Source: a virus
DNA: 30,676 nucleotides
Virus record (IMG/VR): IMGVR_UViG_3300031578_000233
Coordinates: 1-30,676 of that record
Strand: one strand, 5' to 3'
Below the pieces are notes generated by a model that made no database searches, had not been told where the DNA came from, and worked only from the letters and a program-made list of their open reading frames with translations. The stretch's first letter is position 1, and each line of letters begins with the position of its first letter. The position numbers and the translations under genes are program-made. Below, one piece after another: positions 3,828 to 30,254 of this stretch.

Positions 3828-4031
3828 ATGACAACCCTAGCCGAGGACCTGCCAAAGGAGATAGCACGAGTTAGGGTTATTCTTGGTCACTACGAAGAAC
3901 TGGGCCATCCTGGAATGTTTGGTGCTGCGTTTATTAGAAACGATATTGAAGAGGCTATAGAAGCGATTATATCAGGGGATGTAGTTAAGATGATAACCTC
4001 GTTTAAAACGTTGCAAGAAATAAAAGACTAA
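3828..4031 (+). CDS. Small conserved-type phage protein near terminase
   Basis: This 67-residue helical protein has a strong ribosome binding site (GAGGAG). Its pattern (LPKEIARVRVILGHYEELG, then GMFGAAFIRNDIEEAIEAI, then SGDVVKMITSFKTLQEI) is one I associate with small phage proteins of unknown function encoded beside terminase genes. It has no cysteine or membrane segment. Its stop overlaps the ATG of the HNH gene (TAATG). A packaging accessory role is guessed from location only. Confidence 0.65.
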   Translation: MTTLAEDLPKEIARVRVILGHYEELGHPGMFGAAFIRNDIEEAIEAIISGDVVKMITSFKTLQEIKD

Positions 4032-4531
4032 TGAATACAACGAAGACTAAAACTATGGTTAAACCTTGTGTAAAATGTGGTGCTCAGGACAGAAATAAGC
4101 GTGGGCAGTGTAAACCCTGTAGGAAGGCTATGGCTGCAGCCTGGTACCTAGCCAACAAGGAGCGGGCTAAGTCTAAGGCTACGAGCGCAGCCTGGCGTAA
4201 AAATAACCCTGAGAAGGCTAAGGCTAAGGATGCAGCTTACAGAAAGGCTAATCTTTATAGGCGTAATACTCACGAAGCCAAACGCAGAGCTGCCAAGCTT
4301 AATGCAGTACCAACCTGGGGAAACAACTGGTTAGATAAAATCAAAATTCAGGAGCTATTTTTAATAGCTAAAATTAGATCAAAGGTAGAAGGCATTCAAT
4401 ATCAAGTCGACCATGCAGTTCCACTCCAGTCAGATCTAGTCTGTGGGTTACACTGCTTTAACAACCTACAGATTTTACCAGCCTCCGAGAATATCTCTAA
4501 AGGTAATAGAACTTGGCCCGACATGCCTTGA
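4031..4531 (+). CDS. HNH endonuclease with zinc ribbon and three 15-residue repeats
   Basis: This 166-residue protein begins with an N-terminal zinc ribbon with Cys at 13, 16, 27 and 30. Three AAW-type repeats follow (about residues 36-82, the first two residues longer than the others), then a basic linker and an HNH core: VDH (126-128), PLQSDL, GLHCFNNL (139-146) and ASENISKGNR (151-160). It ends TWPDMP like its two paralogues in this window. It sits directly before terL, only 2 bases away. HNH proteins next to terminases can be packaging partners in some phages, but the close similarity to two other copies makes a mobile homing nuclease at least as likely. Confidence 0.85.
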   Translation: MNTTKTKTMVKPCVKCGAQDRNKRGQCKPCRKAMAAAWYLANKERAKSKATSAAWRKNNPEKAKAKDAAYRKANLYRRNTHEAKRRAAKLNAVPTWGNNWLDKIKIQELFLIAKIRSKVEGIQYQVDHAVPLQSDLVCGLHCFNNLQILPASENISKGNRTWPDMP

Positions 4532-13034: not shown

Positions 13035-14504
13035 ATGGCTGAGAATAAGACCCGCTTCCCAGAATTCGTTGGACCTTCTAATACTCTACGAGTAGAGCGT
13101 TTTGATAATCAACGTACGGTTAATATGTACCTTGAAAAGGATCCCCTTGGCTCAGGTAAAGGAGGAGAACCTTATGCGTTAGTAGGGACACCTGGATTAA
13201 AAATACTAGCTGGGTTACCTAGTGGAATTGGTACTGGTCCTATACGTGCTGTGTATTCTGTATCACTTAATAACGCAGTTTATGTCGTATCAGGAGCTGA
13301 GATATATAAACTAGACTCAAACTTAGATGATCCTGTTCTAGTAGGACCTATGCTCACATCTACTGGTTTTGTATCAATAGCTGATAACGGTAACTCCGGT
13401 AACGAGATTGTATTCGTAGATGGACAGTATGGTTATTATTCCAACCTTATTGGTATTCCAACTCTTACTAATATCATCGACCCCAACTTCTATCCAGCTT
13501 CTACAGTGTCTTACCAAGATGGATACTTCATCTTTTGTCAAACGGGGACTAGCTACTACTTTATCTCTGATCTATATAGTGTTAATTTCTTGCCACTAAA
13601 CCAAGCTAATAAAGCTGGTGATAGCGATGTTTTAATTGCCACCATATGTAATAACCGTATCCTATACTTGCTTGGTCAAAATACTATTGAAACCTGGTGG
13701 GATTCTGGTCAGTCAGGTTCTACACCATTTGCAAGACAAGATGGACAGTTTGCACAGACTGGTTGTACTGCCGTAGGTTCTGTAACTAGAATATTCAATA
13801 CTATAATGTGGTTAGGCACTAACCCTCAAGGTGGTGGTATTGTGTATATGATGGAAAACTCGCAGCCTATAAGAGTTTCTAACCACGCTATAGAATACTC
13901 TTTACAAAATGCCGGAGACTTATCCGGTAGTACTGCTTACTCTTGGCAGATAGAAGGACACTACTTCTATGTTCTAAACGTTCCCGGTCTAAATACAACC
14001 TGGGTTTATGACATAGCTACACAACAATGGTTTGAACAACAATCAGTAAGAAACGGAAAAGTAGGTAAACATCTAGGAGGGTGTCATACGTTTTATAATG
14101 GTACTCACTTGATAGGGGACCAAAACTCTAACCTAGTTTATGAATATGATTTTGATACCTATACCGATAATACTCAGCCAATTGAAAGACTTAGACAATC
14201 TCCACATATTAGCCAAGGATTAAATCGTATCTTTTATAAGTTATTCCAGGTAGATACTAGCCCTGGGGTTGGCTTAGCCGATGGTACTGATCCCCGTATA
14301 ACGTTAACTATATCTAACGATGGTGGAGAGACTTGGGGTAATCCTATTTTTGCATCTCTGGGTAAACAAGGTAAATACTTCACACGTGCTCGTTGGCAAC
14401 GTCTTGGTAGTTCTAGGGACAGAGTCTTTAGGGTTACTTGCTCAGACCCAGTTAAATTCAATTTATTATCTGCGTATTTAGACGTAGAAGCAGGGGAAGC
14501 TTAA
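13035..14504 (+). CDS. P22 gp10-like tail accessory protein
   Basis: This 489-residue protein is close to the 472 residues of P22 gp10. It shows the family's opening pattern: a PEFVGPSN segment, then RTVNMYLEKD, then PYALVGTPGL and IRAVYSVSLNNAVYVVSG. Multiple beta repeats follow with NxxYxY and WDSGQSGSTPF (about 224-234) motifs. The protein closes the head below the gp4-like ring and gives a platform for spike or fibre attachment. It starts 2 bases after the gp4-like stop without a strong Shine-Dalgarno, so the pair is probably made together, and it ends with TAATG overlap into the cupin-SET gene. Confidence 0.87.
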   Translation: MAENKTRFPEFVGPSNTLRVERFDNQRTVNMYLEKDPLGSGKGGEPYALVGTPGLKILAGLPSGIGTGPIRAVYSVSLNNAVYVVSGAEIYKLDSNLDDPVLVGPMLTSTGFVSIADNGNSGNEIVFVDGQYGYYSNLIGIPTLTNIIDPNFYPASTVSYQDGYFIFCQTGTSYYFISDLYSVNFLPLNQANKAGDSDVLIATICNNRILYLLGQNTIETWWDSGQSGSTPFARQDGQFAQTGCTAVGSVTRIFNTIMWLGTNPQGGGIVYMMENSQPIRVSNHAIEYSLQNAGDLSGSTAYSWQIEGHYFYVLNVPGLNTTWVYDIATQQWFEQQSVRNGKVGKHLGGCHTFYNGTHLIGDQNSNLVYEYDFDTYTDNTQPIERLRQSPHISQGLNRIFYKLFQVDTSPGVGLADGTDPRITLTISNDGGETWGNPIFASLGKQGKYFTRARWQRLGSSRDRVFRVTCSDPVKFNLLSAYLDVEAGEA

Positions 14505-15355
14505 TGAGCGCTGATTTAAAAGTAGTTGAAACCAAGTTTCCTACCGTAGATGAACTAGAGGTATTTATGCTAGAGCAGGAACAAGCTGAATGTCCAGTGA
14601 GACATATATTCGGTGATGGGTTATATATACGTGAAGTTACTTTTAAGGCTGATACTTGGGCCATAGGACACCATCAGAAGTTTACCCAGATGAATATAAT
14701 GATCAAGGGTAAGGTTAAGATGTATAATAGTGATGGTACTACTAAAATCCTAGAAGCCCCACTAACATTTATGGGTCCTCCTGGGCGTAAAGCAGGATAT
14801 ATCATAGAAGACACAGTGTGGCAAAACGTATACGCAACCAACGAAAAAGACGTAGGGAAATTAGAAGACTATTTCTTAGATAAAAGCGAGGCTAGTCTGT
14901 TAAAATATAAAGAGGATACCTTACTTCTAGAAGATAAATCAGACGACATTAAAGACTACGAACTACTCCTAGAAGAACTAGGTATGACGGAGGATCAAGT
15001 TCAGAACCAGGTTCAAAACTTGGAAGATAGAATTGATCTACCAAACGGTAATTATAAGTTTAGATCTGCTAAGTCTAATATAAGTGGTGAAGGTGTATTT
15101 GCCACATCATCTATTAAGCCTTGGGAGATAATAGGCCCGGCTAAAATAGATGGTTTAAGAACAATACTTGGTTATGGTGTAAACCATAGCACCAATCCTA
15201 ATGCTATAATGATGGAAGAAGGCGGGGATGTATTCCTCGTTTCTGTCGTGGATATAGCTGGGTCTACTGGTGGTAAACTAGGAGATGAAATAACCATCTC
15301 ATATAGAGAAACAATAAAAGCATTAAAAGATAATGAGAAGAGAGAACTAATATGA
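14504..15355 (+). CDS. Cupin and SET-domain fusion protein
   Basis: This 283-residue protein has two parts. Residues about 33-115 look like a single-domain cupin: FGDGLYIREVTFKADTWAIG, HHQKFTQMNIMIKGKVKMY (His 56 and 57), then GPPGRKAGYIIEDTVW. Residues about 120-175 are an acidic helical linker. Residues about 185-270 show SET-domain features: SNISGEGVFATSSI (191-204), GYGVNHSTNPNA (223-234, the NHS..PN motif that binds S-adenosylmethionine) and GDEITISYRE (260-269, the EExxxxY motif). SET proteins methylate lysines in proteins, and the target here is unknown. The gene is coupled on both sides (TAATG, ATGA) inside the virion operon, suggesting action on virion or ejected proteins. The SET call is from motifs only. 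Confidence 0.7.
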   Translation: MSADLKVVETKFPTVDELEVFMLEQEQAECPVRHIFGDGLYIREVTFKADTWAIGHHQKFTQMNIMIKGKVKMYNSDGTTKILEAPLTFMGPPGRKAGYIIEDTVWQNVYATNEKDVGKLEDYFLDKSEASLLKYKEDTLLLEDKSDDIKDYELLLEELGMTEDQVQNQVQNLEDRIDLPNGNYKFRSAKSNISGEGVFATSSIKPWEIIGPAKIDGLRTILGYGVNHSTNPNAIMMEEGGDVFLVSVVDIAGSTGGKLGDEITISYRETIKALKDNEKRELI

Positions 15356-16209
15356 GTGCAGTCGCTACAGCTATCATTGGAGGCTCAGTAATAACTGGTT
15401 ACATGGGAAGTAAAGCAGCTAATGGGGCAGCTCAAACACAAGCTAATGCAGCTAATAACGCAGCTCAGTTACAGAAGAAAACTACTGAGGAACAACTAGC
15501 CCAACAGAAGCAGATGTATGACCAGAACGTTGCTAGAATGCAGCCTTGGGTAACATCTGGACAAACCGCTAATAACACCCTTGCAGACCTTATGGGTACC
15601 AGTGGAAATTCTTCTGCTACAGGATATGGTTCTCTAGCTCATCAGTTCAATGCATCTGATCTTAATGCCAATATGGCACCTAATTATCAGTTTATGCTAG
15701 ATCAAGGTTTACAGACTCTTCAATCCAGTGCAGCTGCCAGAGGTGGACTACTTACAGGGCAAGGAGCTAAGGATATTAATAACTATGCTCAAAACGTAGC
15801 TCAAGGTGGGTATCAACAAGCGTATAATAACTACACTAATAACCAGAATCTGCTGTATAACAAACTTAATGGTATTAGTACTTTAGGTCAAAATTCAGCT
15901 ACTGGAGTTGGGGCACAGGGAACACAAGTAAGTTCTAACATGGCTAATACAGCTATGAGTGGAGTAGGAGCACAGAATAATTATACGACTAGCGGAGCTG
16001 CTGCTTCTGCTGCTGGTCAGATGGGAGCTGCAAATGCTTGGTCTGGTGCTTTAAACTCAGGTATAAACAACTATAATACTCTACAATATCTAAATGGGAT
16101 GAATACTACTGCCGCAATACCTTCTAATGCAGCGTATAATCCTTATAACCAGGTTAATCTAGGAAATAGCTCACAATATATGAACGGTTTACCAACACCG
16201 ACTTATTAA
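15352..16209 (+). CDS. DNA ejection-type internal virion protein
   Basis: This 285-residue protein starts with a Gly/Ala-rich hydrophobic segment (ATAIIGGSVITGYMGSKAA) that could enter a membrane. A Gln-rich helix (about 25-60) follows, then PWVTSGQTANNTLADLMG (about 62-79), PNYQFMLDQGLQTLQSSAAARGG (103-125; shown in part as FMLDQGLQTLQSSAAARGG) and Asn/Tyr/Ala-rich repeats to the end. This arrangement is that of the first of the podovirus proteins that leave the head before the DNA (P22 gp7-like type). It overlaps the cupin-SET gene by ATGA and is followed by two further ejection-type genes. Confidence 0.75.
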   Translation: MSAVATAIIGGSVITGYMGSKAANGAAQTQANAANNAAQLQKKTTEEQLAQQKQMYDQNVARMQPWVTSGQTANNTLADLMGTSGNSSATGYGSLAHQFNASDLNANMAPNYQFMLDQGLQTLQSSAAARGGLLTGQGAKDINNYAQNVAQGGYQQAYNNYTNNQNLLYNKLNGISTLGQNSATGVGAQGTQVSSNMANTAMSGVGAQNNYTTSGAAASAAGQMGAANAWSGALNSGINNYNTLQYLNGMNTTAAIPSNAAYNPYNQVNLGNSSQYMNGLPTPTY

Positions 16210-26319: not shown

Positions 26320-27060
26320 ATGTTTGGATCTATGATTTTTGGGTATTCTTCAGTATCTTCTAATTTTGTGTATAACAAAAATATTTCTACTTCTATACAA
26401 AACTATGATATGTATGCAGATGCCTCGGCAAATGGGTGGGATACAACTAGTATACTAAATATGACTGTTACGGTTACCAGTACTGGCATAGTGGGGGGTA
26501 CTTCTACATATGCTTTAACTACTAATGCTAGTGGTACTTTTCCTGTAGGATCTACTCTTTCTCTAGTTATAATGTCTGGTGGGTATATAGTAGGTAAGGG
26601 TGGTAATGGTGCAAATAGTAGTAATAATCCATCCCCAGGAGCCCCAGGTTTAAATGCGATAAATGCTACTTATGCTATAAGCATAAATAATAGTGGTACT
26701 ATAGCCGGAGGGGGTGGAGGTGGTGGAGCTACTTATGGATCCTCAGGTAGTCAGGATGGTTGTGGTGGTGGTGGAGGAGCAGGTTATTCTGCAGGAACAG
26801 GGGGTAGTGGTATATACAACACTGCGGATAATGGAAGTTCTGGTACATTAACTACCGGTGGTATTGGTGGTAATGATGCTGCCGGCAGTCTGTCAGATAC
26901 TGGTGGTAACGGTGGTAATTTAGGGGTTGCGGGATCAGCCGCTAACGATGTTTCTAATCCTGGATATGGTTCTAATGGTGGATCACGAGGTTATTATGTA
27001 GTAGGAAATTCGCTAGTCACCTGGATAGCTACTGGGACATTACTTGGTGCCCAGTCCTAA
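26320..27060 (+). CDS. Glycine-rich adhesin-like tail protein
   Basis: In this 246-residue protein, residues 1-100 are ordinary beta-type sequence with FGYSSVSSNFVYNKNI and TLSLVIMSGGYIVGKGGNG. From about residue 90 on there are several Gly runs (GGGGGGG near 130, GCGGGGGAG near 148, GGNGGNLG near 193) separated by short variable segments rich in Asn, Ser and Asp. That layout resembles gp38-type adhesins of T-even-like phages, in which polyglycine helices pack together and the loops between them contact the receptor. The similarity is in architecture only. Its place at the end of the fibre block supports a host-recognition tip. AGGGGT lies upstream of the ATG. Confidence 0.65.
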   Translation: MFGSMIFGYSSVSSNFVYNKNISTSIQNYDMYADASANGWDTTSILNMTVTVTSTGIVGGTSTYALTTNASGTFPVGSTLSLVIMSGGYIVGKGGNGANSSNNPSPGAPGLNAINATYAISINNSGTIAGGGGGGGATYGSSGSQDGCGGGGGAGYSAGTGGSGIYNTADNGSSGTLTTGGIGGNDAAGSLSDTGGNGGNLGVAGSAANDVSNPGYGSNGGSRGYYVVGNSLVTWIATGTLLGAQS

Positions 27061-29582: not shown

Positions 29583-30254
29583 TTATGGCATGTCTGGCCA
29601 AGTGCGATTGCCTTTGCTTAGATTTTCTGAAGCTGGTATTACTCTTAAGTTATTAAAGCAGTGTAACCCACAGACCAAGTCAGACTGTAAAGGCACTGTA
29701 TGGTCGACGTGGTAGGGTATACCAGTGTGAATTGACTTTTCCTTTGCAAACCAATAAACAAAGTCTATAAGGTCCTTTTCTTCCTTAGTCTTAGCCCAGG
29801 CTGGGATTGCTTGAAGCTTAGTTGAACGACGTCTGGCAGCTAGAGCATTCACTTTGTCTGGGTTGGCTTTTTGGTAGGATGCCATATTTGCCTTAATATT
29901 CTCTTTGTTTGCCTTCTGCCAGGCTGCTACAGTAACTTTAATCTGTTCCTTATTTTCCTGGTAGTAGGCTGCCTTATTTGCCTTAATATTCTCTTTGTTT
30001 GCCTTCTGCCAGGCTGCCATATTAGCCTTAACTTTGTCTAGGTTGGCCTTCTGCCAGGCTGCATTCATAACCTTAATATTCTCTTTATTTGCCTGGTAGT
30101 AGTCTGCCGTATTAGCCTTAATATTTTCTTTATTTGCTTTATACCATGCTGCATTAGTAGCCTTTGCACACGGTCTACAATTCCCAGACTTGTTACGATC
30201 TGTAGCACCACACTTAACACAAGGTTTACTTTGTTCGCCTAACATTCTTTTCAT
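29583..30254 (-). CDS. HNH endonuclease with zinc ribbon and seven 15-residue repeats
   Basis: In this 223-residue protein the zinc ribbon has Cys at 12, 15, 26 and 29. Seven 15-residue repeats of the AAWQKANKENIKANM type run from about 35 to 139, the largest array among the paralogues here. A basic linker, a helix (KTKEEKDLIDFVYWFAKE) and the HNH core follow: VDH (183-185), PLQSDL, GLHCFNNL and ASENLSKGNR, with the shared ending TWPDMP. The gene lies nearest the right end with its own extended -10 promoter, upstream of the lysis genes. It is a probable homing nuclease. The longer array could set spacing or hold more DNA. Confidence 0.87.
   Translation of the reverse strand: MKRMLGEQSKPCVKCGATDRNKSGNCRPCAKATNAAWYKANKENIKANTADYYQANKENIKVMNAAWQKANLDKVKANMAAWQKANKENIKANKAAYYQENKEQIKVTVAAWQKANKENIKANMASYQKANPDKVNALAARRRSTKLQAIPAWAKTKEEKDLIDFVYWFAKEKSIHTGIPYHVDHTVPLQSDLVCGLHCFNNLRVIPASENLSKGNRTWPDMP
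29886..30017 (-). repeat. Identical 42-bp stretches within the HNH repeat array
   Basis: The 42 bases starting at 29886 recur unchanged at 29976, exactly two 45-bp units away. DNA identity beyond protein need shows recent duplication or gene conversion inside the array. Confidence 0.8.

Follow-up and report, generated by a model that had tools for sequence, protein, structure and literature searches.

The marking of histones is the best-known task of SET lysine methyltransferases. For cupins, the second kind of domain considered here, a short tail fibre with an RmlC-like cupin has been mentioned, without tests, in Ralstonia phage phiAP1 (PMC8703784). A sequence search found no solved phage cupin, and BcepIL02 gp64, a virion protein of the genome region discussed below, gave no cupin match. 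In P22 and T7 the gene slot just 5' of the first ejection gene holds P22 gp14 (locus L110, 8911-9366) and T7 gp13 (locus L111, 4408-4824), both poorly understood assembly proteins. The open-access literature yielded no phage cupin-SET protein and no virion lysine methylation by a SET domain. Matches to "SET domain" in phage-structure papers referred to immunoglobulin domains of the C2-set and I-set types. Both domains of the protein described here are of known kinds, and the PHROGs database already groups the fusion as a family of unknown function (phrog_34170).

Position of the fusion gene in the virion operon

The virus record analysed here (IMG/VR IMGVR_UViG_3300031578_000233; 30,676 nucleotides, or 30.7 kb) is hereafter called the window. 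Its gp10-like and ejection genes, together with genes for terminase, portal, scaffold and a P22-type coat protein, mark the virion module of a short-tailed phage of the P22-like kind. A first-pass annotation, made from the letters alone, had placed a gene encoding a SET domain joined to a cupin between the gp10-like and first ejection genes, overlapping both (Table 1). The junctions bear this out. The TAA stop of the head closure gene and the ATG of the fusion gene have one nucleotide in common (TAATG, 14502-14506), and the TGA stop of the fusion gene overlaps the next ATG by four nucleotides (ATGA, 15352-15355). The motifs quoted in that annotation (GVFATSSI, GYGVNHSTNPNA and GDEITISYRE) are all found in the translation. 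A P22 gp26-type tail needle was considered for this protein and rejected: the position between gp10 and the ejection genes fits, but there is no long coiled coil, the model consisting of a cupin, short helices and a SET domain.

Table 1 Features of the cupin-SET locus, in positions of the window
Feature	Position	Strand	Basis
Possible Shine-Dalgarno AGGGGA, 5' of the fusion ATG	14491..14496	+	Read from sequence
Head closure Hc3 / P22 gp10-like gene	13035..14504	+	phrog_578 5e-98; Pfam Phage_stabilise 7.5e-13; solved gp10 relatives 3.7e-25
Cupin-SET fusion gene, 283 aa	14504..15355	+	ORF translation; phrog_34170 (unknown function) 7.7e-81
Cupin (RmlC-like) domain, ~aa 25-130	14576..14893	+	PHROG "short tail fiber protein" and "tail fiber adhesin" relatives
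Helical linker, ~aa 117-179	14852..15040	+	AlphaFold helices 117-124, 129-141, 146-159, 163-170
Mini-SET domain, ~aa 183-270	15050..15313	+	Profile, fold and motif matches
First ejection gene (gp7-like)	15352..16209	+	phrog_598 4.5e-22; adjacency conserved

Two other regions of the window were also noted. A Gp38-type tail fibre adhesin (26320-27060, forward strand; PF05268 3.6e-14) lies 3' of a 1,096-residue protein without a Pfam match. The two ends of the window each hold an endonuclease VII-like gene, one on the forward strand (4031-4531) and one on the reverse (29583-30254); the two share 45% identity and almost the same C-terminal end, and the second carries additional internal repeats of the AAWQKANKENIKAN type.

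Prediction of a SET domain

The window protein alone scored 17.4 bits with the Pfam SET model, against a cut-off of 22.4, and a Pfam SET search of its own genome was empty, so that the motif-based call of the first-pass annotation needed testing. The empty search reflects the divergence of this single sequence and was solved with a profile of relatives, among which the protein of Pseudoalteromonas phage PH1 (34.3 bits) and that of locus L029 (27.5 bits) pass the Pfam cut-off themselves. A leave-one-out SET profile, built from 49 relatives with the window excluded, scored the C-terminus of the window protein at 120.9 bits, and 2,000 shuffles of the same C-terminus at 10.4 bits or less. Compared with solved structures, the family SET profile matched MLL1 (9e-8), vSET (7.8e-5) and EZH2 (2e-4).

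AlphaFold models were made with 50 sequences and were confident both for the whole protein (pLDDT 92.7, pTM 0.88) and for the SET domain alone (pLDDT 89.2). The first Foldseek match of the SET model was vSET (2e-5). Realignment with VIA gave Z scores of 12.0 to MLL1 and 11.2 to vSET, with SMYD2 and SMYD3 also within Z 11-12; the model superposed on SMYD3 with an rmsd of 1.4 over 75 residues at 28% identity, and on SMYD2 with a similar rmsd (about 1.4). The predicted model has the SET fold, in which the C-terminal motif would be threaded; absence of the fold would have spoken against the original call, and on this basis the C-terminal domain is assigned to the SET type (PF00856). The sub-threshold Pfam score is what one would expect of a fortuitous match or of a decaying remnant. 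The separation from the shuffled sequences already refutes the doubt about homology, and the confident predicted fold and the conservation of the active site likewise oppose that explanation, which we regard as having a negligible chance of being correct.

Conservation of the predicted active site

The cofactor and catalytic motifs of SET domains (GxG, NH and E..T..Y) are represented in the window by G195, G197, N227, H228, E262 and Y267 and are conserved in relatives. Conservation was counted in 91 different SET domains of the family, two of them standalone. N227 and G197 occur in all 91 and H228 in 90; Y267 is kept in every complete row, one of the 91 rows lacking the end of the domain. Overall identity of the relatives to the window in the SET domain is only 33-52%. 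Loss of the NH(S) and Tyr residues in homologues had been named beforehand as an outcome that would count against a SET enzyme, and these residues (N227, H228 and Y267) were found to be kept in essentially all of the sequences. This is the pattern expected of a working enzyme, and the domain appears to be active.

Residues 224-225 of the window protein, directly beside the active site, are Tyr-Gly. Among 70 close relatives, 68 carry Arg at the first of these positions, and at the second Tyr or Phe is almost universal. Because this pair is unusual, the window copy may be altered in activity. SMYD enzymes likewise have no Arg-Phe pair at the equivalent position, so Tyr224-Gly225 need not abolish activity. 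The domain is also very compact, at about 85 residues. Only about 17 residues separate the first strands from the NH motif, which leaves almost no SET-I insert. Ahead of the GEE motif, members of the main clade carry a GCxGG loop that is missing from the PH1 clade.

These features bear on the suggestion that the SET domain is catalytically idle and serves as a lysine- or S-adenosylmethionine-binding clamp in assembly, the structural work being done by the cupin. The very small size of the domain with its near absence of a SET-I insert, the missing Arg-Tyr pair before NH in the window and the existence of cupin-only homologues that manage without a SET domain would all suit such a clamp. The retention of N, H, Tyr and GxG across the 91 relatives would not, and a Tyr kept without exception is not expected of a mere clamp; we therefore consider an idle domain unlikely.

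The cupin domain

The N-terminal domain matched phrog_12032 (6.6e-28) and phrog_24280 (6.3e-26), and phrog_12032 was matched by all 50 relatives. Its predicted model has the double-stranded beta-helix fold, with Foldseek matches to cupins at 1.5e-5 and VIA Z scores of about 8. The candidate metal ligands at positions 56, 58 and 62 vary: they are His, Gln and Gln in the window, relatives have His at 62, and position 56 is Arg or Gln in the BA3 and PH1 groups (Arg in the BA3 group). The canonical second His motif of enzymatic cupins was not seen in the cupin alignment. The first-pass annotation had offered two roles for this domain, as a sensor of a small molecule or as a docking part of the tail. 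The variation of the candidate metal ligands, at position 56 as well as in Gln62 of the window against His in relatives, does not support the first. The second gains support from SET-less homologues annotated as "short tail fibre" or adhesin that occupy the same slot in many podophages; for this cupin family, the short tail fibre or adhesin role is a name taken from annotation and is to be read as putative. Thus of the original interpretation the SET-cupin fusion, its coupling within the operon and a docking role of the cupin were supported, and small-molecule sensing was not.

Distribution and modularity

Relatives were found at a minimum of 288 loci in IMG/VR by pattern and tblastn searches, and 80 of the 288 were retrieved. 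Five more occur in genome contigs of metagenome bins, which are probably phage contigs, and full-length matches were found in eight phage records. Homologues are encoded by Rhodoferax phage P26218 and Pseudoalteromonas phage PH1, both of them cultured and completely sequenced. In the record MW202557 (locus L009, 3932-4816) the cupin-SET gene had been missed, and a reverse-strand ORF a short way 5' of it is labelled "contryphan-vn-tryptophan".

The neighbourhood of the gene, a survey of which had been proposed in the first-pass annotation, showed that coupling to the next gene is nearly always kept: of 93 loci, 73 have the start of the next gene at -4 to +3 relative to the stop of the SET gene, and in 90 the distance is no more than 30 bp. 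Where enough flank was available, this next gene was in most cases a recognisable homologue of the first ejection gene. The preceding gene varies and may encode small tail proteins, tailspikes, a tail fibre assembly protein or terminase. Three architectures were distinguished. The first is the P22-like one of the window. The second is BPP-1-like (loci L008 and L077) and runs from terminase, through a GNAT gene in L077, to cupin-SET, one or more small genes and a head-tail adaptor, so that the fusion gene does not adjoin an ejection gene. The third (locus L071) consists of tail fibre, tail-fibre chaperone, cupin-SET and a virion structural protein. A GNAT acetyltransferase gene lies directly 5' of, and overlaps, a cupin gene in BPP-1 (Bbp24-Bbp23; locus L099, 7444-8363) and a cupin-SET gene in L077 (2398-3782), which places two possible amine-modifying enzymes side by side in the latter.

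Cupins without a SET domain occupy the same slot in the P22-like phages BA3, X14, VvAW1, VPMS1, 234P9 and DSL-LC05; in the first five the cupin-only gene lies 5' of a DNA ejection gene. In the T7-like phages Sphaerotilus R1 and Variovorax VAC_51 a SET-less cupin lies between the tail tube and an internal virion protein, and Bbp23 of BPP-1 is a further cupin-only homologue. Cupin-only homologues were also found on the Acinetobacter seifertii plasmid pAS6-2 (CP061693, locus L275) and on five A. baumannii plasmids, which are 40-56 kb long and may be phage-plasmids. In a 78-row tree of the cupins, the presence of the SET domain requires six changes (four to six in bootstraps), at least two of them forced by strong branches. 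The cupins of PH1, with a SET domain, and of BA3, without one, are 54% identical. Read from the sequences, the linker-SET modules of PH1 and the window look homologous (TEEQVQEQVQNTADMVDLP and TEDQVQNQVQNLEDRIDLP, respectively), and for this reason loss of the SET domain or exchange of the module seems likelier than independent invention. Insofar as cupin-only homologues fill the same slot and the tree calls for several gains or losses of SET, these comparisons identify the cupin as the core virion-module protein and the SET domain as a modular, apparently active addition.

Candidate substrates

The search for a conserved lysine in the SET-bearing phages covered Hc3, the three ejection proteins (1-3), gp4, coat and portal. 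With a threshold of 75%, no lysine column qualified in the 69 sequences of Hc3, the 88 of ejection protein 1 or the 45 of gp4, and it is consequently unlikely that one universal target lysine is present in these proteins. The coat (16) and portal (4) sets were too small for such an assessment. Lys211 of gp4, a candidate with 34 sequences, did not survive the larger set of 45. Lineage-specific lysines, coat or portal, the protein itself and host proteins remain as candidate substrates.

Two lysines within the protein were considered in connection with self-methylation, by which the SET domain would modify its own cupin or linker and so switch the assembly state. Lys127, at the junction of cupin and linker, is present in 98% of the main SET clade and is rare in SET-less cupins, as this model would predict. 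The PH1 clade, however, has the SET domain and no Lys127, and Lys96 of the cupin is kept whether or not a SET domain is present; self-methylation is accordingly judged very improbable.

An active methyltransferase could also be directed at a host protein, late in infection or after ejection with the DNA. Standalone mini-SET proteins of about 100 residues, hypothetical or unannotated, were found in Pelagibacter phage Kolga (locus L100, 4956-5264) and Prochlorococcus phage P-SSM7 (locus L101, 2962-3261), and also in P-RSM6 and AG-345-P14. Since these marine phage proteins are encoded outside virion operons, the domain has no obligatory link to virion proteins, and phages, cyanophages among them, can use it on other targets. 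A host target would also be in keeping with the lack of a conserved lysine in Hc3, ejection protein 1 and gp4. It is harder to reconcile with a gene so constantly coupled to the one that follows, in most cases an ejection gene, and with the fused cupin, whose SET-less relatives sit in virion modules; the varied samples from which the related phages come would likewise argue against one specific host target. We see this as a minor possibility.

Proposed role

The observed basis for a role comprises the fusion itself, predicted models of the two folds, a retained SET active site, a constant position within the virion operon, and a SET domain gained or lost as a module on a conserved cupin. Counting against the role proposed below are the absence of a widely shared lysine in Hc3, ejection protein 1 and gp4, the unusual Tyr224-Gly225 of the window copy, the standalone mini-SETs outside virion operons and the BPP-1-like loci, in which no ejection gene adjoins the fusion. 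At about even confidence, we propose that the protein is a late protein-lysine methyltransferase of a P22-like podophage, docked by its cupin and acting on a virion protein during assembly. The protein would be made late, together with the virion proteins. The cupin would dock it onto the tail or ejection module, and the mini-SET, for which catalysis is predicted, would use S-adenosylmethionine to methylate a lysine of the substrate, presumably a virion protein modified in assembly rather than a host protein. A more general form of this proposal, to which we give tentative and somewhat lower credence, is that a widespread group of podophages uses a cupin-docked mini-SET during assembly to methylate lysines in its tail or ejection proteins, a histone-type system that would mature or protect the injection machine.

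The preservation of a SET active site in a tail-operon fusion, across some 300 related viral sequences, suggests that phages chemically mark a protein of their own particle or of the host. Were a compact SET domain kept by selection in the virion operons of several podophage architectures, phages would be modifying particle or ejection proteins enzymatically, and the question would be which lysine is modified and whether infection depends on it. The comparisons also show the podophage "short tail fibre" cupin to be a platform that has acquired and shed an enzyme domain.

Comparison with known systems

In T7 and P22, only the gene slot is common to gp13, gp14 and the fusion. T7 gp13 and P22 gp14 belong to unrelated Pfam families (PF11090 and PF11039), neither of which was matched by the window protein; profile comparisons were weak and no sequence link was found. 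A single acetyltransferase-like family for this slot, comprising T7 gp13, P22 gp14, Bbp24 and BcepIL02 gp65, was also considered; Bbp24 is a GNAT protein, but profile comparisons could not link the others, and such a family is at most a tentative lead.

The podophage cupins of phrog_12032 and phrog_24280, for example those of Bbp23, BA3 and VPMS1, have the cupin domain and the gene slot in common with the fusion, the slot being either 5' of the first ejection gene or the Bbp23 position, but they stop after the cupin, whereas the window protein adds the linker and the SET domain. Members of phrog_34170 are full-length cupin-SET proteins like that of the window, and one of them, in MW202744, is annotated as "pbcV-1 histone H3-lys 27 methyltransferase structure".

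The standalone phage mini-SETs of P-SSM7, P-RSM6, Kolga (gp27) and AG-345-P14 have the same mini-SET with the signature RTPLG.[FY].NH. They lack the cupin and, where annotated, lie beside nrdB or hypothetical genes and not beside tail genes. With vSET of chlorella virus PBCV-1, MLL1 and SMYD2/3 the phage domain has in common the predicted fold and the GxG, NH..PN and E..T..Y motifs. It differs from these in its length of about 85 residues with hardly any SET-I insert, in the main-clade GCxGG insert before GEE, in that no post-SET zinc cysteines were seen, and in its fusion to a cupin within a tail operon.
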